From IMG/VR virus record IMGVR_UViG_3300025132_000324, positions 1-22,929 of that record: a stretch of DNA of 22,929 nt; one strand, given 5' to 3'. Both the position numbers and the translations under genes were made by a program. The stretch is from a virus. The notes beneath the pieces were generated by a model. It was not told the DNA's origin. It worked only from the letters and a program-made list of their open reading frames with translations, and did not search any database. Positions 5,401 to 22,462 of the stretch are shown here, one piece after another (within the stretch, counting starts at the first letter, position 1; the number at the start of each line of letters is the position of its first letter).

Positions 5401-8400
5401 AGCGCACGTAACACTTTTAAAGATGATATTGATGATCTTGCAACAATTTTAAATGACGGCATTCCAGCCTATATTGAAAACAACCTACCCCCGTTATTAT
5501 CTGATCCTGGCTGCGATAATGGTTTGGCACCTTTTGAACCAGAAGCAATTGCTAAGGCAACAACCAACGCTCTTGACGGCAACATGGAAGCACTTAAAAT
5601 TGCTTACACTTATGATATGATTGGGAATGGCCCAGGCGAGAGAAACTGGGGCTTTATGAATATGGTGCTTTCTGATACTATGGGCAACCCATATACAGCA
5701 CACGTTAGAAAGTCTTTTAACTCTGGCGGCTGGCTTTCTAAGAGAAGGTATGTAGATTTTAATGCTCAAAGTGATGGTGGTGCGTCTTACGGTGACGATG
5801 CAACCTTCGCAAAAACACAAAACCAGCAAGGGGCGTTTCCTAATAAGGTTGCAGACTGGCTAATGGAAGAGATGCCAAAGCAATTCTTGGCTAGTAGTTT
5901 TAGTTCTACAAATGAAGGTAGAGACGACAAAATATCTAGAAAATCATTTGAAGATTTAAATTTTGATGGTTTGTTTGGAGATGTAAATCTTCTTAATATA
6001 CCCGATATGGGATACAACGTTGACATTAGCGTTAATTTTGACGAAGAGCGAGTAAAGTTTAATCGCAAGGCAAGAAAGAAGTCCGCCGATTTAGAATTAA
6101 AGTTTAGAGATAATGCTAAGGGCACCGCTGACTCCGAAAGTCAAGCTCCATTCTCATATGGATTTAATATGAAACTATTCTTGTCTGATATAGTCAAGGA
6201 AGATGACGAGTTCAAGAATAGGCAGGATGACAATGCAAGAATAGTCATTACAAATGTTGTCAATACATTAGCAAAAGTTGAAGCTGGTGAGGGTGCCTAT
6301 GCCGAAGCTGGAGGAGATGCTGATAAAAAGGAGAAAAATAAAGGTGGAGCGATTCTAAAGTGGCGAGCTTATGAGTTCCTTTCCACGGATAATGGACTTG
6401 ACGGACTTGACTTGCTATCCTACAGAAGATTTTCTGAGACCGGAGATAAGGCAAAAAACTACATTCCACAAGTGTATATGCTTCAAGATATTATAGAAAA
6501 AGCTGGAGGTACTCCACCCAGCGCCCAAGACGTAAAGAACACGCATGATGCAATTATGGATAGGTTGTTTAAGAACTTTGCCGAACAAGTCTATACAAAT
6601 GAAAAGGCGTTTACATATGGTGCCGAATATGATGATATAAGTTATTCGGATGTGGATTATGGTGTGGAAAACGATGCCGGGGAGTTTATCCTATATGCAA
6701 CGTATGCTGACAATAACGATATCACAAACGAAGATGCAGTATTGGGTGTCAGTAGGGATCAATATAATAACGGAGACAAGGCGAGAGTATATTACTTAGA
6801 CCCTGCCAAGCATGGTGGAAACTATTTTAACCCTCCCGTATATATCAAGCCAGTAGAGAACACTGGTTGGCTTGGGTTTGTAAATGTTATGTTCCCAGAA
6901 ATTGGACCATGCAAACCATATCGAACAGACGTAATCGACTTTGGCTCGATTCAAGAAAGAATAAATAGCACATATTCTAGCATTCCAGAAGATGAAAGGC
7001 TCAAGACAGATCCCGATTGTGTGCGCGAGGAGCCTTACAATAGGATTCTTGAGCGTCCAGCGAAGGCTGGTATTGAAGGCTTGATAAGTGCAGCCATTAG
7101 AATTTATGCGAGTGTTCATATTCTCAAAGCATCTGCCACATTTACCAAGTTTAAGCCAGACTTTAAAAATACTTTTAGTTCCCTTTACGCACAATACATC
7201 ATAGAGAAGATGCAAGAAGATTTTAAGGATGCTCAGCCAAGTGGCTTTTTTGAATTCTTTAACCCGTTCAAGGATGAAGAATTTTGGTATGCATTCTTAG
7301 AACAATCAGTCCAAACATATGCTAGAAGATATGCAGATGGACAATTACCAGATCCTCCTACTCCAGTTGTTGATGCATTGCTTAGAATTGAAGAGGCTAT
7401 AGGCAAGCATAGACAAATTTTTAAAGATGACTACAACACCAAAGATGGTAGAACAATCATGGGTGTCCGCACAGCAAGAGACATCGGCGATGCCGGGCGA
7501 CTCCAAACACTTAAGAGTTACAGAGGCGACAAAAATCTTGAAGTGATTAAAGAGACCGAAGATGATGCAAAACTAATCTTCCAAGAAATGGTGATCGAAG
7601 AGCTACAATTTATGGCTGATACTTATGTTAAAAATATGCAAGATGTTGGCCTTGCTAGCGAAGAGGACATGGTGGGAGATATAAGAAAATATATTCTTGA
7701 AGAATTGACCGCTGGCGCTCTTGATCTTGAAATTGACAAAGAAATAAAAGAACAAGTTGAAGAAGTACCCACAGAAGATTTAGAGGCTGCCAGCGACTTA
7801 TACGCCGCGCCTGGGGTCTTTATCACAGAAGATGGGGAAGAGTATTCTGGCTATTATCATATACACATAGATGAAGAAGGAGATCCAATTTATATGGAGG
7901 GCTCCTACCACACTGAGGATGATCATCCAGTGCTGAGAGTATCTGCTAACAAGGTGATAGTTCCAATCGGAGATATATCTTGGGACGAATCCAGCACTTC
8001 TGATAGCAAGCCATTTAAAATTCGTAAATACATCAGAGTGGGAAGTGATAAGGTTTATAGCAATGACGATGCTAGAGAAATACTTAACAACGCGGCAACT
8101 GATGCTGGGTTGGAACCTAGCGACACAAATATATCCGATTTATTCCCAGGCACGATGGAGCTTCTTCTTGATGAAAATGGCTCAGCAATTGGCATCACGG
8201 GTGAGCTTGGCGTTCGTTATGGGATTGAATTTTATGTTGGTGTTACCAGAGTAGTTTCAGTTGAAGTAGACGCTCTTGATTTACCAATCGATCAGTTCCA
8301 AGAACTCAACGCTAATACAAAATTACTTCTTTGTCTTATTAATAATTTACTCGATGATCCAGATTTCAATGCAATTGTTAAATATGTTTTTCCACTAAAC

Positions 8401-8913
8401 AAAATTCTATCAACAATCGCAATCTACAACGATATGGCGTTCGTTCCCTCAATTGGGGAAACAATTAGTGCTGGTGAAGAGTCAGGTACAGCTAGCTCTA
8501 AGCCCGGTCGCTACATAGCGGTATCGTATGATGGAGTCGATGACGAGACAGGCGACCCAATTGTAAATATAACGGCTGGAGATGGCAGTGATGGTTGGTT
8601 TGCAACCGAGAACAGGACACCTGGATTTTTCGTCGGTAATGGACTATTCTTATTACACTATGATAAGTGGGATCAAAACATATTCACAAAATCCAAATTC
8701 AGGGTAAAGAAATTATTTAAGGGTTTCTATAATTCAAGAGATTTTGATCCTGGCGGCGACGATTCTGATGGTCCCGGTCAGGCACTTATCTCCCAGCTTT
8801 CTGCTGCCTTTAGACCAGCATCTGGACAAAGACTTCTCCCTTGGTGGAAGAAGAGAATGCTAAGAAGCAATCCTTTTAATGCAGATGGCGGTATGTGTGA
8901 TAAAAAAGATTAG
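2443..8913 (+). CDS. Giant virion structural protein (2156 aa), unknown fold
   Basis: 2156 residues with no enzyme domain I can recognise. Visible landmarks: an EF-hand-like loop at residues 11-22 (D11, N13, D15, D19, E22); a CxxC at 32-35; an acidic run at 156-168; a hydrophobic, lysine-striped probable helix at 763-801; an acidic helical stretch near 1720-1785; and a histidine cluster at 1801-1831 (H1806, H1808, H1823, H1828). Cysteines recur along the whole chain. There is no signal peptide. The ATG at 2443 is preceded by GAGAG (2432-2436). It lies between the spike genes and the gp25 homologue, where P2 has nothing and T4 has no equivalent of this size, so a baseplate or tail-tip structural role is likely. 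Length alone might suggest a tape measure, but the composition is not a long continuous helix, which argues against that. Product identity is inferred from context. Confidence 0.75.
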   Translation: MAESKFLKYQDRNGDSLIDICEIELAREQPVCKDCVPNPKALVPNWKTSPPLEPFLNEKLCQYQIAITTPETTTGGDSTTTEEQAEANLQAFYAQYADEVYEEFLDFYDKGATDDNKAILSENVDFKDYYLEALPSSHLQLLYSFPFEILSMLAGEEEDEEEEEEPEDVTVDYIATDMATDMIRIRKGLNLYSRYEKVYKFTDGGSLVFIETGGLFNLEKYGDAGFFPGASITAGLLPQLDEFLNNKGFNIAGVGGIGGLFEDTVTRIEFTFTGKYRLKKMKVYSETCGEKPKVFNKRKLKALNKKSAWKNRTAVAYFAQMKKMERDLTARVPKPWLEFVKEYTYPKVESVINAGYTNTDPENSVGSCIAGNLAAEGKQLGQDILDDVFGLGDAIAAQFHKMLCNEDYKEMLGQKIKFGQIPKAAQDVAAQGANVDQIDAAKFVPTGKDEDASKNIGAFAIEQAFKELDENDQVFGNFCALILAGFAGGGDATRQLDLLWANGLDKIRVCGLFDLMLDALQCLFKGMTLEEALASMLKAALTAMSIENFGDLFIGLPPDKQQELNALVQKKLNEGDIFQPDSQAQRVSDQAAEGENARVDVDSDAELFVKPEFKVPWENPELISKQNKDMMREGSYETMTPSGIPPATSRESDVANATVKAQLQNAGSQLNPSVVMEAYIAALIEVYSENLLDLMDILNKFPGAQIISKIIALIDCPIPPIFDPSIADFLKDIELPFCRNTNHIGLPRLENPFAYLPKLKDIFRLLFLIIKIQIQKLVVKIIIKLIIKLCELIGNAICKALETVGDIAAALPSIATGRSTFKDVIRESICGPDTPDEQIDDTIVDMFQKMGAGGAAFADREAVMAFAEDMSAATTRRELSNAVIGDPSETFLKVIQSLVEFEYPQFAEAFDSRENISSFFGNVGNLMPAAAKQAVKDFARGLGDDDELPANPTLCATPQQIEDFCSARAGLLEGRATPEQIAKLCNSARNTFKDDIDDLATILNDGIPAYIENNLPPLLSDPGCDNGLAPFEPEAIAKATTNALDGNMEALKIAYTYDMIGNGPGERNWGFMNMVLSDTMGNPYTAHVRKSFNSGGWLSKRRYVDFNAQSDGGASYGDDATFAKTQNQQGAFPNKVADWLMEEMPKQFLASSFSSTNEGRDDKISRKSFEDLNFDGLFGDVNLLNIPDMGYNVDISVNFDEERVKFNRKARKKSADLELKFRDNAKGTADSESQAPFSYGFNMKLFLSDIVKEDDEFKNRQDDNARIVITNVVNTLAKVEAGEGAYAEAGGDADKKEKNKGGAILKWRAYEFLSTDNGLDGLDLLSYRRFSETGDKAKNYIPQVYMLQDIIEKAGGTPPSAQDVKNTHDAIMDRLFKNFAEQVYTNEKAFTYGAEYDDISYSDVDYGVENDAGEFILYATYADNNDITNEDAVLGVSRDQYNNGDKARVYYLDPAKHGGNYFNPPVYIKPVENTGWLGFVNVMFPEIGPCKPYRTDVIDFGSIQERINSTYSSIPEDERLKTDPDCVREEPYNRILERPAKAGIEGLISAAIRIYASVHILKASATFTKFKPDFKNTFSSLYAQYIIEKMQEDFKDAQPSGFFEFFNPFKDEEFWYAFLEQSVQTYARRYADGQLPDPPTPVVDALLRIEEAIGKHRQIFKDDYNTKDGRTIMGVRTARDIGDAGRLQTLKSYRGDKNLEVIKETEDDAKLIFQEMVIEELQFMADTYVKNMQDVGLASEEDMVGDIRKYILEELTAGALDLEIDKEIKEQVEEVPTEDLEAASDLYAAPGVFITEDGEEYSGYYHIHIDEEGDPIYMEGSYHTEDDHPVLRVSANKVIVPIGDISWDESSTSDSKPFKIRKYIRVGSDKVYSNDDAREILNNAATDAGLEPSDTNISDLFPGTMELLLDENGSAIGITGELGVRYGIEFYVGVTRVVSVEVDALDLPIDQFQELNANTKLLLCLINNLLDDPDFNAIVKYVFPLNKILSTIAIYNDMAFVPSIGETISAGEESGTASSKPGRYIAVSYDGVDDETGDPIVNITAGDGSDGWFATENRTPGFFVGNGLFLLHYDKWDQNIFTKSKFRVKKLFKGFYNSRDFDPGGDDSDGPGQALISQLSAAFRPASGQRLLPWWKKRMLRSNPFNADGGMCDKKD

Positions 8914-8928
8914 TGCGTAGTATTTATA

Positions 8929-8934
8929 GAGGAG
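8929..8934 (+). promoter_or_regulatory. Strong Shine-Dalgarno site for the gp25-like gene
   Basis: GAGGAG ends seven bases before the ATG at 8942, in the largest intergenic gap of the window (28 bases). It fixes the start of the gp25-like gene and suggests independent, efficient initiation there. Confidence 0.7.
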
Positions 8935-8941
8935 AACAAAA

Positions 8942-9310
8942 ATGGCTTCTATTAGTGTAAGATTACCTCTATCGCTTGATAATACTGACGGGTTTGGGAT
9001 GATCAAGCAAGTCACAGCTATGGTAAGTCAAAATTTAAAAATGCTGATTCTCACTAATCCTGGCGAAAGGGTTATGGAGCCTGAGTTTGGCGTTGGGATA
9101 AAACAATTTTTGTTTGAAAGTTTTGAGAGTGATGTTTATGCAAGAATAGATAATAGGATTAGAGAACAGGTGCAGGAATACATGCCGATTGTAACAGTAG
9201 AAGAAGTCAATTTCTTTTCTTTAGAGCCTGATTCAAATAAAGTATCATTTAGGTTAGTGTATTCTATACCGTCAATCGCTGTAAGTGATTTGTTAGAATT
9301 TACTATTTAA
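8942..9310 (+). CDS. gp25: Baseplate wedge protein, gp25/GPW family
   Basis: 122 residues, close to the usual length of the family (T4 gp25, P2 gpW, TssE of type VI secretion). The family hallmark is seen at residues 39-50, NPGERVMEPEFG, followed by VGIKQFLFE; this corresponds to the conserved Glu-Pro core that contacts the sheath and wedge. A helical segment (residues 61-80) and a beta-rich C-terminus complete the compact fold. The protein sits at the inner baseplate ring and links the wedge to the first sheath ring, helping to trigger contraction. It is followed 19 bases later by the gp6-like gene, the same W-J adjacency as in P2. No oddities are seen. This is one of the two most secure calls in the window. 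Confidence 0.95.
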   Translation: MASISVRLPLSLDNTDGFGMIKQVTAMVSQNLKMLILTNPGERVMEPEFGVGIKQFLFESFESDVYARIDNRIREQVQEYMPIVTVEEVNFFSLEPDSNKVSFRLVYSIPSIAVSDLLEFTI

Positions 9311-9329
9311 ATTGAAAAGGTAACAATAT

Positions 9330-11126
9330 ATGCCACAAGACCCAAAGAAAAAAATACCCATTAATTATACAAATCGTGAATTTACTGGGATTAGATCAGA
9401 TCTAGAACAAATAGCAGAAAGGTTTTATCCTGATACTTTTCAAGATTTCAGTGAAGCCTCTTTTGGCTCAATAGTTCTCGATTCTATAGCATACGTTGGA
9501 GATCAGCTATCATTTTATCTGGACTACAATGTCAATGAAATGTTCCTCGATACGTCGTATCAATATTCCAATGTTCTTCGACATGGAAGAATTATGGGAT
9601 ACAAAAATCAAGGCAGACCTTCCACGTATGGCGTAGCCTCTTTGTATGTTTTAGTTCCGGCCTCTACAGTGGGTCTTGGACCTGATGATAGCTATTTGCC
9701 CATTTTAAAAAGAGGAAGCAGATTTACATCACAATCTGGCTTAAACTTTGTTTTGTTAGAAAATGTAGATTTCTCAGATGCAAAAAATCAAGTAGTGGTT
9801 GCTAACGTAGATGCTGCCACGGGCGCACCTACTTTCTTCGCTGTTAAGGCATATGGTAATGTGGTGTCTGGATTTTTTAAAAGAGATACGTATACTTGTG
9901 GCAACTTTGAAAGATTTAAGCTTATAGAATTGCAATCAAATAATATTTCCGAAATCATTTCCGTTACAGATGCCGAGGGCAACGAATATTTTGAAGTGGA
10001 CAACTTATCGCAAGACATAATTTATCAAGAATTTTCAAACAATAATTTTAAAAATGAAAATGCCCCATCTATTATGAAGCCTTTGCTAGTTTCAAGAAAA
10101 TTTATATCTTTTACTGAAAGAACAAGAACGTTTATTCAATTTGGCTCAGGAAACCCTAATGAATCTGACGTTGTGGCAGATCCACAAAAAGTTGCCATGA
10201 ATATTTTTGGAAAGTCGTATGTCACAGATACAACATTTGACCCAACTAAACTAACAAAAAATCAAAATTTTGGCATAGTCCCGACAAACACCACGCTAGA
10301 AATAATCTATAGAGTTACAAATCCAACAAACTCAAATGTAGCAGTCGGCGCTCTAAATAAGGTTGCTAATACAAATTTTGAATTTGAAGATAGGCCAAGC
10401 TTGATTAGTTCTAAGGTTGATGCTGTCATAAGCTCGATTGAGATTTTTAATGAGAAGCCGATAACAGGAGATATATCTACCCCAACCGCAGGCGAAATAA
10501 AAAGAAGAATTTATGATTCTTTTTCCACTCAAAACCGCGCTGTTACACAAGTAGATTATGAGAACTTGGCATATAGAATGCCGTCTAAATTTGGCTCGAT
10601 AAAAAGATGTTCAGTACAGCGAGATCCAGATTCTCAAAAAAGAAACTTAAATATGTATATTGTTTCAGAGGACTCGTTTGCCAAATTAATCTTATCCAGC
10701 GACACGATAAAGAAAAATTTAAAAGTTTGGCTGAATCAGCATAGAATGATTAACGATACAATAGACATAATTGACCCATTTATTATCAATATGGGCGTGA
10801 ACTTTGTAGTGTCCGCAAGAGAAGGTGTCAATAAATTTGATTTAAATCAGAGATGCGTAGAGGCTATTGGAAAACGTTTTGGAACTCCTTACTACATTGG
10901 AGAAGATGTTAATATATCAGAAATGTATAAAGAACTTGGAAAGGTTCCAGGCGTATATGAAGTCTTATCCATCATAATGATCAACAAGACAGGGACAAAT
11001 TATTCAGGCAATTCAATTGATATCAAGAAAAACTTGTCACCCGATGGGTCGAAACTAGTTATACCAAAAAATGCAATTGTTGAAATTAAATACCCAGATA
11101 CAGATATCAAAGGACAGGTTAAATAA
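9330..11126 (+). CDS. gp6: Baseplate wedge protein, gp6 / baseplate J family
   Basis: 598 residues, a little shorter than T4 gp6 (660). The N-terminal part carries the typical helical signature SFGSIVLDSIAYVGDQLSFY at 44-63, followed by a segment about disordered versus layered subunits' contacts (NEMFLDTSYQ, 69-78). The middle has the baseplate-J style block around TQNRAVTQVDYENLAYRMPS (400-419), and the C-terminal part (FGTPYYIGEDVNISEMY, then KVPGVYEV) matches the alpha/beta domain that dimerises neighbouring wedges in T4. In the family (T4 gp6, P2 gpJ, TssF) this protein forms the iris-like ring of the inner baseplate, with gp25 and gp7. A Shine-Dalgarno AAGG ends nine bases before the ATG. 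The gene ends TAATG, sharing one base with the next start. Identification is by family pattern and by the gp25 neighbour. Confidence 0.93.
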   Translation: MPQDPKKKIPINYTNREFTGIRSDLEQIAERFYPDTFQDFSEASFGSIVLDSIAYVGDQLSFYLDYNVNEMFLDTSYQYSNVLRHGRIMGYKNQGRPSTYGVASLYVLVPASTVGLGPDDSYLPILKRGSRFTSQSGLNFVLLENVDFSDAKNQVVVANVDAATGAPTFFAVKAYGNVVSGFFKRDTYTCGNFERFKLIELQSNNISEIISVTDAEGNEYFEVDNLSQDIIYQEFSNNNFKNENAPSIMKPLLVSRKFISFTERTRTFIQFGSGNPNESDVVADPQKVAMNIFGKSYVTDTTFDPTKLTKNQNFGIVPTNTTLEIIYRVTNPTNSNVAVGALNKVANTNFEFEDRPSLISSKVDAVISSIEIFNEKPITGDISTPTAGEIKRRIYDSFSTQNRAVTQVDYENLAYRMPSKFGSIKRCSVQRDPDSQKRNLNMYIVSEDSFAKLILSSDTIKKNLKVWLNQHRMINDTIDIIDPFIINMGVNFVVSAREGVNKFDLNQRCVEAIGKRFGTPYYIGEDVNISEMYKELGKVPGVYEVLSIIMINKTGTNYSGNSIDIKKNLSPDGSKLVIPKNAIVEIKYPDTDIKGQVK

Positions 11127-12568
11127 TGGCTATTAAACGCTATGTGGCTGATGCAGATAACACTATCTCAAACGCTTTTAAAGAAAATCTAACCACCCGC
11201 GCAACAGGCTCAAATATGGGTCAGGCTGATGTCAGCGAAGTGTTTTCAATTTATGCTCGCGCGTCCACATCCTCTGCTGAATTATCGAGAGTTCTGACTA
11301 AATTTGACATTGGAGCCATTTCATCAGATCGTGCAGCAGGAACAATACCGGCATCGGGTAATGTTAGTTTTTACTTACGTTTATTTAATGCAGAAACTGT
11401 CAGAACTGTTCCAAAAAACTTTACTATCGTGGCACAGGCAATTTCAAGATCTTGGAACGAAGGCGATGGCTTAGATCTCGAAAATTATAAAGATCTTGGA
11501 AAATCAAATTGGGTAGCAGCCAACTCCACAACAAATTGGACTACCGCCGGCGGTGATTATCATTCGTTACCCGTATTTACTCAGCAATTTTCTACAGGAC
11601 TTGAAGACTTGGAGATTGATGTTTCAGAACTTGTAGAACAATGGATCGCAGGAACCAAACAAAACTACGGTATTGGCTTGCGCCTAACATCTTCCAACGA
11701 AGCGTCATCATCGGCCAACCCGACCGGGGCAGAAGATTCATACTATACAAAGCGTTTTTTCGCAAGAGGAACACAATATTTCTTTAAAAAGCCCGTAATT
11801 GAAGCTAGATGGAATTCGTCACTACAAGATGATCGCGGTGATTTTTATATGTCATCATCATTGGCACCTGCAACTGACAACCTTAATACTTTATACCTAT
11901 ACAATTATGTTCGTGGTAGACTAACAAATATACCTGCTGTTGGAACAGGAGAGATTTTTGTTGACTTGTACGAAACACTCGGTGACAGCGCAGTAACACA
12001 GGCAGTAAACACACCCGCGACCGGCGGATATGTTTCGACTGGTGTGTATTCGTGCTCTGTATGTGTCGAGGGTTCTTATTCAACTTTGCGAGATGTGTGG
12101 CATACCGGCGGCGTTGAATACTTTACCGGCAGCGTTAGCCCCGAAAGTTTTGCTGCCACTTCTTTCTCAAATGGAAACTATCGGTATGTTGTAAATATAA
12201 AAAACTTGAGAAGCAAGTATTTCTGCGAAGAGGAAGCTCGCTTCAATGTTTATGTGAGAAACAAAAACTGGTCCCCAACTATTTACACAGTAGCGTCAAC
12301 GGAAATAGAAAACACAATAATTCCTAGCGCATCATACAGAGTTTATAGGGTTTTAGATGGATATAATGCTATACCACACGGCACGGGTTCGAACTTACAA
12401 ACAATACTCTCCTATGATGTTTCAGGAAACTATTTCAACCTCGACATGTCGCTTCTTGAACCGGGATACGAATATGGCATCAAGCTCGCATTCTATGATT
12501 CACAGAGGCAATCTTGGATCGAGCAAGACCAGAAATTCCTATTCCGAGTAGAAGATTATGAGTATTAA
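11126..12568 (+). CDS. Structural protein with DNRLRE-like N-terminal domain
   Basis: 480 residues. Residues about 5-230 follow the layout of the DNRLRE domain family, beta-sandwich modules found mostly in secreted and surface proteins: RVLTKFDIGAI at 55-65, a beta strand with aromatic residues, SRSWNEGDG at 108-115, Trp129 and Trp138, then the diagnostic LEIDVSELVEQWIAGTKQNYG at 162-182 region and a closing KKPVIEARW at 221-229. The C-terminal half is also beta-rich, with Tyr, Ser and Thr abundant, and looks like one or two further sandwich domains. No signal peptide or membrane segment is seen. Translation is probably coupled to the gp6-like gene through TAATG, and AGGACAGG upstream may serve as ribosome binding site. 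Placed between the J-like and I-like genes, it is likely an outer baseplate or adaptor protein that may contact the host surface. Function is inferred. Confidence 0.7.
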   Translation: MAIKRYVADADNTISNAFKENLTTRATGSNMGQADVSEVFSIYARASTSSAELSRVLTKFDIGAISSDRAAGTIPASGNVSFYLRLFNAETVRTVPKNFTIVAQAISRSWNEGDGLDLENYKDLGKSNWVAANSTTNWTTAGGDYHSLPVFTQQFSTGLEDLEIDVSELVEQWIAGTKQNYGIGLRLTSSNEASSSANPTGAEDSYYTKRFFARGTQYFFKKPVIEARWNSSLQDDRGDFYMSSSLAPATDNLNTLYLYNYVRGRLTNIPAVGTGEIFVDLYETLGDSAVTQAVNTPATGGYVSTGVYSCSVCVEGSYSTLRDVWHTGGVEYFTGSVSPESFAATSFSNGNYRYVVNIKNLRSKYFCEEEARFNVYVRNKNWSPTIYTVASTEIENTIIPSASYRVYRVLDGYNAIPHGTGSNLQTILSYDVSGNYFNLDMSLLEPGYEYGIKLAFYDSQRQSWIEQDQKFLFRVEDYEY

Positions 12569-15500
12569 AGATTTATTTGGCAAGCAAAGAACATTACTTC
12601 CGCAAACAACAAATAAAGAATTGTTGGAAAATGTTGAATCTACAAAAAATGTAAAAGAAAAGCTGGAACTGAAGAGGACTTTTGTTCCGCAAATAGACTA
12701 TTCAGAACCAGCAAACTTTGCTAAGTATGGCTCTGCCCACTTATACTATAAGTCAGCAATTGAAAGAATACACGATTTCTTTCCATATGATGGGTCTGAC
12801 GCTGAAATAAACGAATTTGTAAATAAATCGTTACCACATGAAAAATATATATTTGATAATTTATATCCAAGAACAAATGGTTACGCAAATTTTGATGGCT
12901 CTTCGCATATTACTCTAAAGGGCGGACCTCACGCCACCTCGTATACAACACTTGGAAATTTATTTAAAGATGCCGATTCTAGTAAGCGGAGCCAAGCTAA
13001 TATATATGAATCTAATATATATCAGGATAACAACAAGCCTTCAGACTATGGCGGTGGAACCAGAGAATCAAACCTTAAATGTGATTTTCAACAAGGGGTA
13101 ACAGTTGAATTTTGGCTAAAAGCGCCAAGCCCTTCTGCAAACTCAAAGCAAACAATTTTCCACTTGACAAACTCATCTGGTGGAGATGCTTTAACAATAT
13201 ATCTATCTGGCACAGCAGGCTCGCCTTTTCATGTTAGCCTTGATAACTCGTCAGCAGCAGTTTTTTCTAATCAACAGGTTGGCTCAACGCCGACCACCGC
13301 GTCGGTGTCGTCTTGGTCACACTACGCCTTATCTTTTAAAAGTGCTAGCGCTGGTGTTCAAACAAAACTTTATGTTAATGGACGACTAGATTCGTCAGAT
13401 GCGCTGGGATCTGCTGGCGTCAACACCCTTACTCAGAAAGGCACTATCGCCCATATAGCCTCGGGCTCTGTAGGCTTTCTATCAGCGTCAATCGATGAAT
13501 TTAGATTTTGGAAAACTGAAAGAGATGCTTTTCAAATAGGTTCGCGTTATTTTACACAGGCTCGCGGTGGCTCAAACACTGATGTTTCCAATGCAACACT
13601 TGGTGTATATTACAAATTTAATGAGGGCACAACTGGCATCACGTCCACAGATGAAATAGTATTGGACTATGCAGGGAGAATTACAAATGGAACTTGGAGC
13701 GGCACACCTTCACGAACACTTGAATCGGCCATTGTAGAAGCGGGCGCTGCTTCTAGCGAATTTAAAGATCCAATCATCTATAGCTCTCACCCTTCAGTGT
13801 CATCTTTAAAATCAGATTTGGAATCAAAAGGTAGGTTTTACGACCTTAATAACTCTACAAGATTTATAAATTATTTCCCAAGCTGGGTTATAGAGGAATC
13901 TGAAAACGATGATACTAGCCAATTAGAAATGGTTTCCCATATTGTTGGTGCCTATTTTGATAAACTATATTTGCAAATACAATCAGTTACAGAATTCAAA
14001 CAACCGTTGTACACTAGCTCATCTTATAAGCCTCTTACTTTTGCAAGACATTTGCCACAATCCCTGGGTCTTTACACACCAGAAATATTTATTGATTCTG
14101 ATATAATAAATACGATCTCTAATAAGACAGAAAATTTTAATTTTGAAAGTGATTTAGAAGATACTAAAAATCTTATTTATCTAAATTTATATAATAATTT
14201 AGCATCAATATTTAAATCAAAAGGCACTGAAAAATCAATTAAAAGCATATTGAGATGTTTCTATATTGATGACCAAATTATAAAATTAAATACATACACA
14301 AATAAGGCAAGATACGAATTAAGAAATAACTTAGAACAAACAACAAAATTAAACAATTATATAAATTTCAACAACTCATCTAGTGTTGATGCTGTGGTAT
14401 ATCAAAGGCAAAACCCCTCCAACACAGCAAACACAATTGGATACATATCAGGTTCCGAAAACGAGGGTTATGAGTTTGCTTACGGTGCAACTGTACAAGC
14501 TGATATAACATTTCCGTATTTCAGGACTACGGTAGACGTAATTGATAGGAGTTTTTCCGAAGTATCACTTTTTGGTGTAGTATCTGCAAGCGTTCAAAAC
14601 CCCGATGATACAAAATTTTTATCAACAGACAATACCAACTTTCAAATTTTTGCTGTTCGTGAGAGCGAAAAATCAAAAAATGCATACTTTAAATTAACTT
14701 CTTCGATTTCTCCAAATCCATTTTCTGAAATGACCAGTAGCGTCTTTTTTGGGGTTTATAATAATCAAGACTGGAATTTTTCAGTTTCTATTGAGCCAAA
14801 TAAATCTGGTAGTGTTAAATTTGTTACTGGCTCTGATGACTATAATTATATATTAAGGTTTGAGGGGCATAATACGCTTCTTGGTGATGTCAGGGACACT
14901 TTCTCGCTTGAGCAAACATTAACAAAAACACAAGGCAACAACTTTTTAAAATCTGCTAAAAGAGTCTACGCAGGCGCTTATAGACAAAATATAACTGGCT
15001 CCTTGGTGAATAAAAGTGACGTGCTGCTATCCGGTGTTCGTTATTGGCTAAAAAGCATTGATTATAATGCAAAGAAACAGCACTCTCTTGATTTTGATAA
15101 TGTTGGAATAAGCGATAATTATGAAAACATTTCCGCTCTTGATCCTGCAATAAAAAATCTAGATGTGCTCAATAAAGATATGCTAGCATTGAGTTGGGAG
15201 TTTTCTAATCTGACCGGTTCAGACTCGACTGGAAATTTTTATGTAACAGATTTTAGCTCAGGGTCAGCGCAGATAAGAAACAATTTTGGTTGGGTTGGTA
15301 ATATTTCTGGCTATATGCATTCAGGCTATGGCTTTGGGTTCCCCAATTCTTCAACCAAGGCAATAGAAAATAAGAGAATAAATGTTTTTAAATTTGTTGA
15401 TCCAGAAAGAAGCACTTCATCCGACATGGTTACACTCGTAGACGACTCTCAAGAGTTATTTGGAATCCCAGAAGACGTTGTAAGCTACCATCACACTTTA

Positions 15501-18500
15501 GAAAAAAGTATGTATAGTGCAATATCAGATGAAATGTTAAAATTCTTTGCTGGCGCTGTAGACTTTAATAACTTAATTGGAGAGCCTGTAAACCGCTATA
15601 GAATGAACTATAAGGCTCTTGAGAAACTCAGAGAAGCTTTCTTCCGTCGTGTAGAGAACGTTAAGGAGGTTGAAAAATATGTTGAATATTATAAATGGTT
15701 TGACGATTCTCTCGGTGACATAATTAAGCAATTATTACCTGCCTCGGCTGTAATATCAGAAAACATATTTGATGTCGTAGAGGGACATGTGCTTGAGAGG
15801 AATAAGTACCAATCCAAATTCCCAACAATAGAGTTTAAGGCCCAAGACCCAGAGACTCCGATGTTAGGAATTAGAGAAAAAACACTTGATTGGGAAAGAG
15901 CCCACCACCCAGCTTCTAATTCTCAGAGAGATAATTCTGAATATTGGAAAAATCGTGCGATTAGAAAAAACTCAGATGTAGTATCGTCTGGAAATGACGC
16001 CGTTGATGAACAGCGCGATAATATAATTGAGACGGCAGAAAAATACAATACTCAGCCAGGACCAACCGTAAGCCAAATCAATAAGCAAACATATTCTGGT
16101 CAAACTTTTGTTCTTAGAAAACTTTCCAGACCATATAAATTAAATGTAGATTATAAAACAAATCCTCCAAGAGTTATTAAAGGAGGTGTCAACTTCGACT
16201 TAAACAAGAATTTTGGATTCCACAGAGTTGCGCTACACCCTGCTGGGCCAATAAACACAGAGGATGGTATTTTTGTTCCAAGAAATGTTTTGCTTGCATC
16301 CCTTGAAGACTTAGCACAAGTTGAAGAAACAAATGACCCGCCAAAGAATCCAAATAAAAAAATAAAAAGAAACATAAAAGTACAATCTGGTAGAGATTAT
16401 GAGGATGGGGTAGGCTATAAAAATATCAAATCTGATATAGCCTTCCCGTTTAATATTATTAGTTCGTCCGTTAAGACCGGGTATAATAAGCAAGTTGCAG
16501 AGTTAGTGTCATCTAATTTTCAAATTGTAAATGTTCACAATGATGTTTATGGTAATGATATGGAAAAACCAATGCAGGGACCATTCACAGAACATGTGGT
16601 CGGCGGCTTGCAATATAGACACGTTGGAATTAACAAGGGCAATGATTCGTATCTCACCAGACCAGAGGGCTGGAAGATACTGCTTGGGCAAAATTGTGAT
16701 GTATTAACTGGTGCTATCGGCATGGTCGGCGCTGACTATCCATACCCAGAAGCGAATGAGGTCGGCGTCACTCCGTATCCTTTAACGGGTGCCCAGAAAG
16801 CATTCTTATACAGGGACATGGTCGCAAAAAGACCTGTGAATATAAAAAATATACGCCACCGCACCGGCTCTACTGTTCTTGGGAATTACAATCATAATTA
16901 CGATGTTGTAAATTCTGTTGGGTCTTTTTCAAATCCAAGACAATTTATAGAATCACAACCAATCCTGCCAGAAAATACTTTCACCCCCCAAACACGTTTT
17001 GCAACATCTGCTAGAACCATTCTTGATATTAATAGAACAGAACTTGGACATACTGATTTTAATGGCGATTATTCAGTGAGCTACCTCCACAGTGCCTCTG
17101 GGGAGTCTGTAATAATTTCAAGATTTGCTGCGCCCGGTGGTATTGAGGTTATGACAAGAGGATACCAAGATTTTAGATCAAGCGACTATTCAGTTTATAA
17201 TGCCATGAACGCTAGAAATCTCACTGTGAGAAGGTCATTCCAGGGGGTATCGTCATCCATAGCTTCCGAAACCACGGGGATCAGGAATTTTGACCACACC
17301 GGTCGAGACTTCGGTTTGATGAATCTTTCCGCACGCCATTCTGGAAGGTTCTTCCGCGATTCAACTTTGGTGCCCGATCCCGGCTCATCAGATAATGAAA
17401 GTCCTTCGTTTCATAGGGTTCATAGAAACAATAAGCCAGTGGCAATTGATGAAGGCCGTCCCGCAGTTGAGCAAAAATTTGATAACTTAAATGTTCAACA
17501 CCAAATACCCAGATCTGATAGGCAGTATAGTTGGATTTCGCACTCCATAATACATATGGACGGCGCCGATCCAAGATACGCTGGATTTATGAAAACTCGC
17601 GAAAAAACGCCTCCACCCGAAGCACCATATTATAGAATAGGTGACTCATATGTGCCATTTTTTGAATATGTGACTGCTTCTGATCCAGGGTCACCAATTT
17701 ATCAGAACACAACAAGATTGAATCTGTTAGTGAGAGATGGGACAGGTTCAGCAATGAATACTTTAGGATTGAATACTCTTAGAAGAACATTGTTAACCTC
17801 GCTGCCCATGCATCGTAGGCTAAACGCATTGCTGATCCGTAGGGGCGATTTGTATGGCTGGAACTGGACAGGCACAAGACAACAAGACCATCCGATTATA
17901 AGAATAGAGAAGAAAGAAAATAAAATAAGTTCCATCGATCCCCAAACAGGTCTAATAAAATCCTACGATATGTCTCCTGTTAACATGTCAGGCAGGCCAG
18001 TATATCTTAACATTTATAAAAATACCGGCACATCACCCCAGGGCTCGACCTTTGTGCCAAGACTTGGCACAACCATAAAAGCAACATACAACAACCTAAA
18101 GCAAGGCTTTAACGACCCAATGCTCGCGGATAGAAATAGTACATTGAACGCTGTTGCTGCGGATAGAAGAACCCATCTTGAAGATATGGTTCAGATGATT
18201 AATGAAAGCCCGACTACATCACTTAATTGGGTGTTATACTCGGAAAACATTTTCCCATCTCAAATTAATTCTTTCAATGGCGAAAAGACTTTCAGAGACG
18301 ACTATGATAATCTCTACTGGAGAAACACACAAGATGATAGGGAATCACTTGGAAACACTCTTGTTAATTCATTTGATGTAGATGTAAATCAAAGCTCTTG
18401 GGTGCTAGACGCTCCTCCCGATTTTCTTACTCGCGCCGCCCCGCCAGGGCCGGCAGATTTAAAGACTATCGGTGGCGGTGAGTTGCAGAATACATACTTC

Positions 18501-21464
18501 CATTATTATGATGATGTGCCAGGACCTCCATCAGACTCTGTAATAATAGGGGCTCTATCGCCCTCCGCGCTTTACTCTAGAAAGCATCTCCTAACAACTT
18601 ACAAATCTGTTGTATCGCCGTCCGGTGTTAAGATTGCCGAAACTGGTAGCTCTCACACAAGCTTAACAAGTCATCCAATATCTGTACGTGGAGGGGAGGC
18701 TAAATGGCAAGCTGGCGAAAAGGCAGGCTTTGTAAATTATGAAGGAACGACCCCGACATTTATTTTCGATTCATCAGAGCCGTGGTTCAACAGTTATGCA
18801 GACTATAAGTCTGAACTAAAACTTATATCGAAAGATCATGGCATAGTTCCTGAATTTAGAATTAGCGAAAAGGTTGCAGATTACTTAAAATCAGGACCAA
18901 ATGCTGCTGGATTAACAGACACCTTTGAGGTAGTTGGGACCACTCACGATAGTGATGACCCAGGATTCTATAAGGATTTTTCAAACTCAGAGTTCCTGAA
19001 AGAATTTGCAAATATTTCAGAGATAACAGATACCACTCCAAAAGAAATAAGATTGATATGTAAGGCTGTGACACGCTTTAATCCATATAAGGGATTCTAT
19101 CCTGCACAGAGAACCATTGATATGGTGTCACAATTTGCTGAATCATATAAAGATTCAATATCGGCTAATGGCTATGGGGCTCCAGCAGTATCTGGCAGGA
19201 CTGCTATAGATGATAATGGTTCATTATTAAGGCCACTTTTACAGCCCCTATTTGCACCCGGCATCCTTTACAATACAATCAAATCAGGCATCTCTGTTGA
19301 TTTTCCTGTAATCACGACTCCAAAGAAAACAATAGTAAACCCCGCCGGGACGAATATATATGCTCTCCGAGGTGTGACTGATCAGCCAAATGGGCATAGA
19401 GAGGAATACTCTGGTGGCGTATTTTGGGACAAAAGGCTGCCATTTGAGACAATTCTAGATCCAGATAGGCACATGTCCAAACTTCAGATTTTTGATATGG
19501 AGCCTCACCCATCAGCTAGTTTAAATGCAACAGCCTCACTTGTGGCGCCCTCTAGCGACCCAACTTTCAAAAAAATGTCAAACAACTTTTTCGCAGAAGT
19601 GGCTGACTTTTTCTTAAAAGATTCTGAATACACAACACTTAAGTCTGGAATTGTTGAAGGTACTTTGTCCTTTGAATCTGGCTCAGTGTATGGTGCTAGG
19701 TTGAAAATACGACGCTCCACCAAGGGCTCAAGAACCTACCTAGATGATTTTGACAACGCGGGCAACTCCGGTAATAACTTAACAAGTGGATTTGCTATTG
19801 GCGGACTAAGAGTAAGCTCTTCAGTTGGTTATGGTACAAGCTCCATACAAATTCCGCAAGATCCAAAAAACACCCCGACCTTTAAAGAAACCTTTACGAT
19901 GTATTCGCGCCCATCGGCGTTTGGGCCAGCAATCTGGGGGAGAGCAGACACCGGCATTAAAGAAAATAGTGGTTCATTGGACTCGCTTGTTGGATATAAC
20001 TGGTCTTTTACTCCTCCCTATTATCATGGTGAATCTTGGGCAGATCTTGTGTTTTATCCCGATCACACAAAGAAATATACCTTGGAAGAAATCCTATCAG
20101 AAATAAAAGTAAATTACTTAAGAGTGGATAAGGGCTACCCAACACGCGGCTTAATGCCGGCTGAAGCAAATACCATATATTCTGCAAACAATGTAAATCA
20201 AAACGCAATGCAATTAGATTCTGTTTTAAACATGTTTGGAATCGAAAATATTACTTTTGAAGAAACAAATGATATAACTGGCGGCAAAACCAAGCGGAAC
20301 ACAACTGTTGCACAGCGATGGGTAATTCAGCCCAAGGCAGAAACACCTATGCTTAACTTTAATGACGAAGGTGTTAACAAAATAACAACTGTCAATGGGT
20401 ATTCGCTGAACCCAACATATGGATCCGAGTCGGTCCCAAGAGGAATGTGGCACCAGTTTGGTAACATTCCCGAAGAGGCGAATAAAGGAATCTTTTTGGA
20501 AATAGAAGACATACCAACAAACTGGCTACAATTCCACCAACAAGCTGTGAATTTAGATTCGATATATAATAATCAAGACGCTGATGCTAATGGCGAAGGC
20601 TTGTATAAAAATATGGAATCCTTGACTGATCTTTTCGGCTTTAAAGATTCCTCAGCAAGACTCGGTGAGCTTAAAGATTCACAGACGATTAGGGAAGCAA
20701 TCGTCGCTGTTCCATATATAACAACGACAAATGGTGGCTGCGGGGATGTTGCGGGACAAGAAACAACTTCAGAACAAAAGCAGTTCTTTACAATCCCAAG
20801 AGAAAGAATAGATGCCGCGCTAAGTGTAGGAACCAGCAAGGGCGATGCAGAATCTTCTGCTGGAGATTCAATTAGAGACCTAATACAGAACGTTAAAGAT
20901 TATGTGTTACCACCAGACTTTGATTTCTTGTCGGATCAAAAGAAGAGTCCTCTTGTTATGTACTTCTTTGAGTTTGAATATGAATTTGATAAGGATGATC
21001 TATCTTACATTTGGCAGAACCTTGCACCAAGAGGTTATAAGAAGATGGAACAGAAAGTCCAAACTGCTTCTCATACTCTTGCGAATAACGAATTACTACA
21101 GCCAGAAGATATTCTTGAAAATGAAAACTTGCGTTGGATGGTCTTCAAGGTTAAGCAGCGTAGCATGTCAAAGTATGAGAATAAGATATATCGCCAAGTA
21201 GGAACTAAGGGCGCAGATACTTCTACGTCAGGATACCAAGTGGAATACAATTGGCCATACGATTACTTATCCTTTGTTGAGATGGTCAATATGGATGTAG
21301 AGGTTCTCATGGATAACGAAGTAGAAATGGTCAATACATCAGCACAGATAGCAAAAACCAAAATTCCCAAAACCATCGACAATAGTAAGATAACAAGTGC
21401 CGCAGAAGATATCATTATCGACAGAGCACTAAGTACAATAGACCTACCGGGTGATATGACATGA
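12558..21464 (+). CDS. Giant baseplate protein (2968 aa): LamG-like lectin domain plus gpI/gp7-like region
   Basis: 2968 residues. Residues about 105-355 form a LamG/concanavalin-like domain: YANFDGS at 109-115, VTVEFWLKA at 181-189, WSHYALSF near 253-260, KLYVNG at 270-275 and SIDEFRFW at 311-318. Residues about 439-575 resemble the P2 gpI / T4 gp7 family, starting YFPSW (439-443) and ending with a KGTEKSI motif at 555-561. A second possible jelly roll spans about 640-845. Other conspicuous blocks are LLPASAV (P1061), GHVLERNKYQSKFP soon after, PMQGPFTE (from 1338), APGGIEVMTRGYQDF (about 1524-1538) and DDLSYIWQNL (2813-2822) near the C-terminus. Most of residues 1150-2750 is beta-rich and unassigned. 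It overlaps the previous gene by 11 bases with only a weak Shine-Dalgarno, suggesting coupling. I infer a gp7-type wedge component enlarged with sugar-binding or receptor-facing domains. A tail-fibre-like protein is the alternative. Confidence 0.75.
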   Translation: MSIKDLFGKQRTLLPQTTNKELLENVESTKNVKEKLELKRTFVPQIDYSEPANFAKYGSAHLYYKSAIERIHDFFPYDGSDAEINEFVNKSLPHEKYIFDNLYPRTNGYANFDGSSHITLKGGPHATSYTTLGNLFKDADSSKRSQANIYESNIYQDNNKPSDYGGGTRESNLKCDFQQGVTVEFWLKAPSPSANSKQTIFHLTNSSGGDALTIYLSGTAGSPFHVSLDNSSAAVFSNQQVGSTPTTASVSSWSHYALSFKSASAGVQTKLYVNGRLDSSDALGSAGVNTLTQKGTIAHIASGSVGFLSASIDEFRFWKTERDAFQIGSRYFTQARGGSNTDVSNATLGVYYKFNEGTTGITSTDEIVLDYAGRITNGTWSGTPSRTLESAIVEAGAASSEFKDPIIYSSHPSVSSLKSDLESKGRFYDLNNSTRFINYFPSWVIEESENDDTSQLEMVSHIVGAYFDKLYLQIQSVTEFKQPLYTSSSYKPLTFARHLPQSLGLYTPEIFIDSDIINTISNKTENFNFESDLEDTKNLIYLNLYNNLASIFKSKGTEKSIKSILRCFYIDDQIIKLNTYTNKARYELRNNLEQTTKLNNYINFNNSSSVDAVVYQRQNPSNTANTIGYISGSENEGYEFAYGATVQADITFPYFRTTVDVIDRSFSEVSLFGVVSASVQNPDDTKFLSTDNTNFQIFAVRESEKSKNAYFKLTSSISPNPFSEMTSSVFFGVYNNQDWNFSVSIEPNKSGSVKFVTGSDDYNYILRFEGHNTLLGDVRDTFSLEQTLTKTQGNNFLKSAKRVYAGAYRQNITGSLVNKSDVLLSGVRYWLKSIDYNAKKQHSLDFDNVGISDNYENISALDPAIKNLDVLNKDMLALSWEFSNLTGSDSTGNFYVTDFSSGSAQIRNNFGWVGNISGYMHSGYGFGFPNSSTKAIENKRINVFKFVDPERSTSSDMVTLVDDSQELFGIPEDVVSYHHTLEKSMYSAISDEMLKFFAGAVDFNNLIGEPVNRYRMNYKALEKLREAFFRRVENVKEVEKYVEYYKWFDDSLGDIIKQLLPASAVISENIFDVVEGHVLERNKYQSKFPTIEFKAQDPETPMLGIREKTLDWERAHHPASNSQRDNSEYWKNRAIRKNSDVVSSGNDAVDEQRDNIIETAEKYNTQPGPTVSQINKQTYSGQTFVLRKLSRPYKLNVDYKTNPPRVIKGGVNFDLNKNFGFHRVALHPAGPINTEDGIFVPRNVLLASLEDLAQVEETNDPPKNPNKKIKRNIKVQSGRDYEDGVGYKNIKSDIAFPFNIISSSVKTGYNKQVAELVSSNFQIVNVHNDVYGNDMEKPMQGPFTEHVVGGLQYRHVGINKGNDSYLTRPEGWKILLGQNCDVLTGAIGMVGADYPYPEANEVGVTPYPLTGAQKAFLYRDMVAKRPVNIKNIRHRTGSTVLGNYNHNYDVVNSVGSFSNPRQFIESQPILPENTFTPQTRFATSARTILDINRTELGHTDFNGDYSVSYLHSASGESVIISRFAAPGGIEVMTRGYQDFRSSDYSVYNAMNARNLTVRRSFQGVSSSIASETTGIRNFDHTGRDFGLMNLSARHSGRFFRDSTLVPDPGSSDNESPSFHRVHRNNKPVAIDEGRPAVEQKFDNLNVQHQIPRSDRQYSWISHSIIHMDGADPRYAGFMKTREKTPPPEAPYYRIGDSYVPFFEYVTASDPGSPIYQNTTRLNLLVRDGTGSAMNTLGLNTLRRTLLTSLPMHRRLNALLIRRGDLYGWNWTGTRQQDHPIIRIEKKENKISSIDPQTGLIKSYDMSPVNMSGRPVYLNIYKNTGTSPQGSTFVPRLGTTIKATYNNLKQGFNDPMLADRNSTLNAVAADRRTHLEDMVQMINESPTTSLNWVLYSENIFPSQINSFNGEKTFRDDYDNLYWRNTQDDRESLGNTLVNSFDVDVNQSSWVLDAPPDFLTRAAPPGPADLKTIGGGELQNTYFHYYDDVPGPPSDSVIIGALSPSALYSRKHLLTTYKSVVSPSGVKIAETGSSHTSLTSHPISVRGGEAKWQAGEKAGFVNYEGTTPTFIFDSSEPWFNSYADYKSELKLISKDHGIVPEFRISEKVADYLKSGPNAAGLTDTFEVVGTTHDSDDPGFYKDFSNSEFLKEFANISEITDTTPKEIRLICKAVTRFNPYKGFYPAQRTIDMVSQFAESYKDSISANGYGAPAVSGRTAIDDNGSLLRPLLQPLFAPGILYNTIKSGISVDFPVITTPKKTIVNPAGTNIYALRGVTDQPNGHREEYSGGVFWDKRLPFETILDPDRHMSKLQIFDMEPHPSASLNATASLVAPSSDPTFKKMSNNFFAEVADFFLKDSEYTTLKSGIVEGTLSFESGSVYGARLKIRRSTKGSRTYLDDFDNAGNSGNNLTSGFAIGGLRVSSSVGYGTSSIQIPQDPKNTPTFKETFTMYSRPSAFGPAIWGRADTGIKENSGSLDSLVGYNWSFTPPYYHGESWADLVFYPDHTKKYTLEEILSEIKVNYLRVDKGYPTRGLMPAEANTIYSANNVNQNAMQLDSVLNMFGIENITFEETNDITGGKTKRNTTVAQRWVIQPKAETPMLNFNDEGVNKITTVNGYSLNPTYGSESVPRGMWHQFGNIPEEANKGIFLEIEDIPTNWLQFHQQAVNLDSIYNNQDADANGEGLYKNMESLTDLFGFKDSSARLGELKDSQTIREAIVAVPYITTTNGGCGDVAGQETTSEQKQFFTIPRERIDAALSVGTSKGDAESSAGDSIRDLIQNVKDYVLPPDFDFLSDQKKSPLVMYFFEFEYEFDKDDLSYIWQNLAPRGYKKMEQKVQTASHTLANNELLQPEDILENENLRWMVFKVKQRSMSKYENKIYRQVGTKGADTSTSGYQVEYNWPYDYLSFVEMVNMDVEVLMDNEVEMVNTSAQIAKTKIPKTIDNSKITSAAEDIIIDRALSTIDLPGDMT
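12997..13022 (+). repeat. Short 15-base-period tandem repeat inside the giant gene
   Basis: CTAATATATAT occurs at 12997-13007 and again at 13012-13022, a period of 15 bases or five codons, so the frame is kept and the protein reads NIYESNIYQD. It lies in the LamG-like domain before its main strands. It looks like a small in-frame duplication rather than a regulatory element. Confidence 0.6.
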
Positions 21465-22462
21465 GTAAATTTTTAAATAAAAAAGAACAGGTCATTGATT
21501 TCAAGCTGACAAATTACGGCAACTATCTGCTTTCAATTGGAAACTTTAAGCCGACATATTACACATTTATTGATGACAACGTAGTATATGATTCAGCCTA
21601 TTTTCGTAGAACTGGCGAGCCACAAAACGAAATTCAAAAAAGAATCAAAGAAGAAACGCAATATCTAGAATCTTTAGTTTTGTTTGAAGAGGTTGGAAAG
21701 AATGATCTTCCAGATACAGAGATGAATTTTTTCCCCTCCGACGTGACACCAATTCAAAAGACAACAAGAATTGATGAATTTAGGCTTAATTCAATAATTG
21801 GTGATTCGTTTGTCGGAGAAGATAAACAAAAAGTCCCTTCATGGAAGGTCATATCTTTGAGATCTGATATTAGCTCATCGTCAGAAGTAGACACCATTAA
21901 TAATACAAGAATACCACAAGTAAATATCACAGCAAATTATTATAAAAAAATTGCTGACAGGCAAGAATACACACAAAGAACCTTCAACACATCTACTGAT
22001 AGAGATTTAGAAGTTGTTAGCAGAACGTTTGCAGACGGTAAAGTGGTGTATTTGGAAATGGCCGAGCCCCTAATTTATGTTGAAGAGGCAAATACAGAAG
22101 TCTTAAATGAAAATTTTGATATTGAAGTGTTCGAAGTACAGGATGGTTCAACATCAAATGGCGAAAGGCTAAACAGAAAATATTTTCAAAACATACAAGA
22201 GCAAATTGTTGATGGACTCATGGTTGCAGCAAATCCTGTAGAGCCTATAACAACAGAATTAACAAACGATGCAATTGAAAAACTATTCTCTGTCTATGTT
22301 GACGGAGAAATAGATGCCGAGACCGCTTGCAAGATTGCATCAGAATTTAACAAAGAAAGTTTCTTGGTCGATCTTGACTTTGATTGCAGTGCAACCACAC
22401 AGGAAGACTTGTTTTATGATATTTATGGTAGTGAAACGGAGGCAGAGATATGTCAAACATAG
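21461..22462 (+). CDS. Unrecognised structural-block protein (333 aa)
   Basis: 333 residues; I do not recognise a family. The N-terminus (FLNKKEQVIDFKLTNYGNYL, residues 4-23) is followed by an aromatic-rich stretch, YYTFIDDNVVYDSAYFRR, a likely compact alpha/beta start. The middle (about 100-240) is mixed beta, and the C-terminal third is acidic, with helical stretches and two cysteines separated by a DLDFDCS segment. No signal peptide, membrane segment or catalytic motif is visible. The start overlaps the giant gene's stop as ATGA, a typical coupled junction, and only a weak GGGTG precedes it. The next gene starts inside its 3' end. Its place after the baseplate genes makes a virion or tail-assembly role likely, but nothing in the sequence itself proves this. 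Confidence 0.75.
   Translation: MSKFLNKKEQVIDFKLTNYGNYLLSIGNFKPTYYTFIDDNVVYDSAYFRRTGEPQNEIQKRIKEETQYLESLVLFEEVGKNDLPDTEMNFFPSDVTPIQKTTRIDEFRLNSIIGDSFVGEDKQKVPSWKVISLRSDISSSSEVDTINNTRIPQVNITANYYKKIADRQEYTQRTFNTSTDRDLEVVSRTFADGKVVYLEMAEPLIYVEEANTEVLNENFDIEVFEVQDGSTSNGERLNRKYFQNIQEQIVDGLMVAANPVEPITTELTNDAIEKLFSVYVDGEIDAETACKIASEFNKESFLVDLDFDCSATTQEDLFYDIYGSETEAEICQT
22438..22442 (+). promoter_or_regulatory. Consensus Shine-Dalgarno site for the last gene
   Basis: GGAGG lies inside the coding end of the 333-residue gene, seven bases before the ATG at 22450. It is the best Shine-Dalgarno match of the window and decides the start of the truncated last gene. Confidence 0.7.

Follow-up and report, generated by a model that had tools for sequence, protein, structure and literature searches.

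Residues about 408 to 600 of a 2968-residue protein encoded by an uncultured marine phage were found to form, very probably, a highly diverged baseplate wedge core of the gpI/gp7 type, and thus to be a remote homologue of these proteins. The window, i.e., the whole stretch of DNA analyzed, is a 22.9-kb fragment of this phage, and its relevant features are listed in Table 1. The assignment is based on the conservation of the segment among relatives, its profile relation to wedge proteins, its predicted helices and its gene context. The original prediction had described a hidden gpI/gp7/TssG-like segment at 13872-14285, which corresponds to residues 439-576 in the frame of the giant ORF. The motifs were located where it had placed them (YFPSW at 439-443, ARHLPQSLGLY at 496-506 and SKGTEKSIKSILRCF at 554-568), and helices were predicted by structure modeling, including one directly behind the KGT, in agreement with its description of the stretch as helical. 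Its extent (residues about 439-575) falls inside the core, but the core is wider. The proposed relation to gpI and gp7 was supported by profiles and gene context, with a wedge protein as the best, though weak, structure match, but no sequence match to TssG was detected.

Table 1. Features of the window related to the gpI/gp7-like core, with residue numbers referring to the giant protein.
Feature	Positions	Strand	Basis
gp25/W-like sheath initiator	8942..9310	+	Pfam GPW_gp25 (PF04965) 8.1e-14; phrog_261 1.1e-17
gp6/J-like wedge protein (putative core partner)	9330..11126	+	phrog_219 and phrog_10646, baseplate wedge subunit, about 1e-15
480-aa protein, encoded between the gp6-like gene and the giant ORF	11126..12568	+	
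Giant ORF of 2968 aa that includes the gpI/gp7-like core	12558..21464	+	
N-terminal helical module, residues 44-110 (FAKYGSA..YYKSAIERI..PYDGS..YPRTNGY)	12687..12887	+	
First concanavalin-A/LamG-like domain, residues about 105-403	12870..13766	+	Lies between N-terminal module and core
gpI/gp7-like wedge core (very probable), residues about 408-600	13779..14357	+	Alignment of 111 homologues; model; gpI, cyanophage and gp32 matches
Long helix and core-bundle candidate, residues 455-478 (LEMVSHIVGAYFDKLYLQIQ..)	13920..13991	+	
KSKGT turn (553-557) and helix behind it (558-567)	14214..14258	+	Conservation; focus of gpI/gp7 profile matches
Strand following the KGT helix (residues 575-582)	14280..14303	+	Predicted
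Second beta-sandwich, residues about 592-946	14331..15395	+	All-beta model, mostly pLDDT 80-93
C-terminal helical module, residues 985-1083 (MYSAISDEM..LLPASA..LERNK)	15510..15806	+	Match to immuto family

Direct searches with the giant protein were negative. The 2968-aa protein had no match in PHROGs and Pfam by hmmscan, including Pfam PF09684; tblastn returned no match in phages with the whole protein and none with a 59-aa query for intermediates, and a PDB search by sequence profile gave only noise. When gpI and gp7 profiles were applied to the ten genes of the window, scores were near zero and the core was not singled out. The window's own sequence is thus not decisive with these profiles, and the case rests on the family, with many IMG/VR contigs encoding homologues of 2800-3976 aa and a few encoding ones of 1528-1818 aa.

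A KGT motif followed by a short helix had been taken as characteristic of the P2 tail protein I family. The tripeptide occurs twice in the giant protein compared to 0.8 occurrences expected from composition, a count that is not rarer than chance, and the bare motif is thus no evidence of relationship. What goes beyond chance is the conservation of the turn. In an alignment of the core (A4) with 111 homologues from three phage groups at ~20% identity, K553, K555 and G556 were kept in all 111 sequences and T557 in 110, such that a K.KG[TS] turn is common to every relative and persists down to 15-22% identity. In the core, as in P2 tail protein I, a [KR]G[TS] turn precedes a helix and a strand, and the aspartate D468 of its long helix was also invariant in the homologue alignments.

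Profiles of reference families were used to locate the best local match within the full-length relatives. For a P2-gpI profile built from 66 genome sequences, this match covered the KGT in 110 of 111 relatives compared to 1.6 expected from the lengths of match and protein; these relatives are akin and such counts are not independent. The corresponding numbers were 65 of 93 for TIGR02242 and 11 of 78 for T4 gp7, and the control profiles, TssG and Mu gp48, gave 0 of 111 each. By hhalign, A4 scored 32.3 against merged gpI and TIGR02242 (null 11.4 +/- 2.2, 0/100), and the core scored 30-32 against gpI at the KGT region (null about 11.5 +/- 2.2, 0/100). Expressed as Z over column-shuffled nulls, the values were 8.3 for gpI, 7.3 for TIGR02242 and 9.5 for the merged profile. 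By contrast, T4 gp7 compared directly reached only 1.9, with Mu gp48 (PF10076) at 1.7 and TssG (PF06996) at 0.6, the null level; neither of the latter two families gave a sequence-profile match. The profile-profile check suggested in the original prediction was thus positive for gpI, but not for TssG or, in direct comparison, for T4 gp7. The gpI/gp7 alignments are local, spanning 25-54 columns around the KGT with hhalign probabilities of 14-60%.

Tail_P2_I was the Pfam family matched by most relatives (13 of 62, best 5.3e-4; 15 of 111 in a larger set), and TIGR02242 was the NCBIfam family matched by most (10 of 62, best 0.023 in alignment A3, below cut-off). The latter also matched the KGT stretch of the immuto and Mel groups at 0.014-0.17. 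This gpI-like phage tail protein domain shares with the core an LP...FL.RF.. helix and an RGT/KGT helix, but its E-values of 0.01-0.2 are far under the 51.85-bit cut-off. The curated cut-offs of PF09684 and TIGR01634 were reached neither by the window protein nor by any relative, and a single relative matched TIGR01634, at 0.2. As the curated cut-offs were missed, the segment is described as a remote gpI/gp7 homologue, and assignment to Pfam Tail_P2_I or TssG would not be appropriate. Another family, PF23786 (Baseplate_wedge), matched one relative at 0.0012; it was not found in the records searched and was set aside.

Compared to P2 gpI and R-pyocin Tri2, the core has a similar LLP/FPSW start, helical stretch and KGT turn with helix and strand, and P2 gpI likewise has gp25/W and gp6/J genes upstream. 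P2 gpI differs in being a 176-aa protein, whereas the core described here lies inside 2968 residues beside lectin-like domains and scores below cut-off. The C-terminal alpha/beta half of gpI (EWW..TFRL..KPxSRHL) gave no clear match in the giant protein (Z -0.9 and 3.1). TssG of type VI secretion systems is regarded as the gp7/gpI counterpart (PMC6300606), but differs in having no sequence-profile signal to the core (0/111).

The relation to T4 gp7 appears to be bridged by a cyanophage protein. A profile of the S-PM2 type (49 sequences) scored 36.7 against the core (null 14.6 +/- 3.4, 0/50; Z 6.5-7.8), 40.1 against T4 gp7 (null 17.9 +/- 3.0; Z 7.5) and 26.3 against gpI (null 12.6 +/- 2.2; Z 6.3), in each case at the KGT helix. 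The same profile, when applied to the ten genes of the window, matched the giant protein at residues 544-574 (0.0029), with all others above 0.4. In the giant ORF of one relative (L008), its best match was off the KGT, at residues 1992-2065, and covered profile positions 67-137 (3.7e-5). Within T4 gp7, the first match reported by hhalign was STKGIEASYKFLF, with STKGIEAS, and the first match of both core profiles was FYSTKGIEASYKFLFK at residues 733-764, at the edge of noise; the matching pair is STKGIEASYKFLFKVLYNEE / SKGTEKSIKSILRCFYIDD. T4 gp7 resembles the giant protein in being a large wedge protein and differs in its length of 1032 aa, in a KG turn near residue 738 and in its other domains. 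Its direct profile score against the core was only about 2 s.d. over null, and these profile comparisons suggest that the two are connected through the cyanophage bridge.

In Synechococcus phage S-PM2, the bridging protein is S-PM2p084, a 3048-aa 'virion structural protein' at 4073-13219 of locus L358 (S-PM2 29072-38218). Its gene lies directly after gp25-gp6 and ahead of gp8, with a 176-aa-sized gene between S-PM2p084 and gp8, and its KRTLIKNISDFYRAKGTDQSIKFIFNTL matches the core. The gp7/gpI-type core of this protein is N-terminal (residues 1-220), by which it differs from the giant protein, and the remainder consists of other domains. Among the genes of the S-PM2 stretches read, none was annotated as gp7.

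Gene neighborhoods were surveyed in 80 IMG/VR loci. A gp6-like gene and a homologue of the 480-aa protein were found upstream of the giant gene in all 80, and a gp25-like gene in 79. The gp6/J-like protein of the window matched the baseplate wedge protein of Flavobacterium phage immuto at 5e-67. The order gp25-gp6-gp7 (W-J-I) is thus kept with one extra gene, and the earlier statement that the giant gene lies just after J/gp6 was incorrect in this detail. The 480-aa protein had no family match beyond noise, and a gene of similar size occupies this position in immuto and Microcystis phage Mel-JY01. Elsewhere in the window, a 333-aa protein (NKKEQVIDFKLTNYGNYLLSIGNFKPTYYTFIDDNVVYD) is encoded at 21461-22462 after the giant gene and was detected in 46 of the 80 loci, a set that includes many truncated ones; a 2156-aa ORF at 2443-8913 lies ahead of the gp25-like gene; and a 387-aa protein (268-1431) has weak endolysin matches in its C-terminal part (phrog_2649, 0.018).

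Immuto gp162 and Mel-JY01 WWT39511.1 represent the same gene at the same place. Gene order in these phages is also the same, except that two genes lie between the gp6-like gene and the giant homologue. The immuto homologue was marginal by tblastn (0.07) but firm by profile comparison (probability 98.2); its core alone aligned along its length with a probability of 99.0 and a score of 114 (null 14 +/- 2.7). A profile of immuto and Mel sequences only matched the window protein at residues 424-479 (1.2e-7) and 521-584 (2.6e-11). By eye, neither beta-sandwich insert is visible in immuto, which has a shorter stretch in place of the second, and Mel-JY01 and LR756508 appear to have only the insert after the KGT; no Pfam family confirmed a LamG domain in these three.

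The core was modeled as residues 405-611 with 111 sequences, and the model was of middling confidence (pLDDT 70.6, pTM 0.45), with the predicted helix 455-478 corresponding to model residues 51-77. Foldseek of the core against the PDB gave no match below 0.001. When 73 chains were compared by VIA-align, the best was 8kea chain c (Z 4.2, 125 residues aligned, rmsd 7.6), followed by a chain at 2.1. This chain was identified by sequence search as the wedge protein gp32 of Anabaena cyanophage A-1(L). A Z of 4.2 is low in absolute terms, and the weight of the match comes from gp32 being a wedge protein. Similarly to the core, gp32 has a KGS turn at the same place and its gene directly follows a J/gp6 wedge gene, gp31, but it is a 191-aa protein without such insertions. 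Even this wedge protein of known structure scores below the Tail_P2_I cut-off (0.0016).

The regions flanking the core were also characterized. The N-terminal module, with invariant residues in alignment A1 and helices at 60-74, 81-90 and 93-102, had a weak match to the corresponding part of the immuto family (Z 5.0). The first insert is clearly concanavalin-A-like, with VIA-align Z of 21.4 to PAPP-A and 18-20 to pentraxins, and Laminin_G_3 led the Pfam families for the A1 relatives (matched by 33 of 41, best 1.8e-27). The second beta-sandwich is, judging from its model, probably concanavalin-A-like. The C-terminal helical module, in which ERNK is invariant in A1, matched the immuto family with a probability of 97.3 and a score of 68 (null 12.7 +/- 3.0, Z 18.7). 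A fold search with residues 1-1110 gave a list filled by LamG/pentraxin matches, and the BFVD matches of this region named no function.

Other explanations were weighed against this evidence. The core may have descended from gpI/gp7 and lost its wedge role, such that it now anchors an adhesin of lectin domains while another gene supplies the wedge protein. Lectin folds suit adhesion, most of the giant protein consists of other domains, and the window is only a fragment of the genome, all of which fit such a loss. We nonetheless regard it as improbable, as the other genes of the window had no convincing gpI-type match (0.8 bits or less), gp25- and gp6-like genes are upstream in nearly all relatives, and few parts of the giant protein are as constant as the KGT core, with the insertions being variable. 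It is more doubtful still that the segment is an unrelated helical domain with the KGT and helix a convergent N-cap turn. The shortness of the match, hhalign probabilities of 60% at best, the lack of a full-length fold match and the expectation of KGT by chance would agree with convergence; against it, the core profile scored 6-9 s.d. over shuffled-column nulls with gpI and the cyanophage gp7-like protein, and such scores extend to three reference families, the position specificity of 110/111 holds across three phage groups, the operon is the correct one and the best structural match is a wedge protein.

Residues 509-601 (14082-14360) also scored 2.4e-6 to 4.6e-5 with the archaeal S-layer duplication domain PF07752, and TIGR01567 scored 1e-4, both under cut-off. 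The archaeal S-layer duplication domain is a beta-sandwich, whereas the models show mostly helices in the matched part, and only 5 of the 111 relatives matched PF07752. The match was judged spurious, and the chance that the segment belongs to this domain is negligible.

For a gpI/gp7-type core, a role may be proposed from related baseplates. In XM1, one gp7-like chain and two gp6-like chains form the core bundle with their N-terminal helices, the gp25-like protein sits atop this bundle, and tail spikes are bound by loops of the gp7-like chain (PMC10457771). A similar helical bundle occurs in the (gp31)2-gp32 wedge of A-1(L), where gp32 contributes to holding a long fiber (PMC10966104). The same stoichiometry is found in TssF2-TssG (PMC6300606), and the gp7-like part of AlgoCIS has been termed a hotspot of re-engineering (PMC8894135). 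By analogy with the A-1(L) and XM1 structures, helix 455-478 is a candidate core-bundle helix that would pack with N-terminal helices from two gp6-like protein copies to form a three-helix bundle in the wedge of a contractile-tail baseplate, on which the gp25-like protein would rest and initiate the sheath. The K.KGT turn and its helix would lie at the branching point of the wedge, and the strand behind them would start a C-terminal part interrupted by the second beta-sandwich. Both lectin-like domains, together with ~1900 residues at the C terminus, may be outside, in contact with fibers or the host surface, a placement drawn from the peripheral parts of other gp7-like proteins. An unlikely extension is that the wedge protein, with lectin-fold domains flanking its core, is itself the receptor-binding organ; if so, sugar-binding surfaces would be directly on the six wedges, and attachment to the host could act upon the core bundle and sheath initiator with no need for separate fibers.

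Large wedge proteins such as T4 gp7 and the cyanophage protein were already known. What is new is the context, namely a giant protein in which one lectin-fold domain precedes the core and a second one probably follows it. Taken together, these results give a function to an unannotated giant protein present in dozens of IMG/VR contigs, and tie together wedge proteins of immuto, Mel-JY01, the cyanophages, T4 and P2 that standard profiles leave unconnected. They also show that the smallest of the conserved wedge proteins can be concealed within proteins of ~3000 residues.
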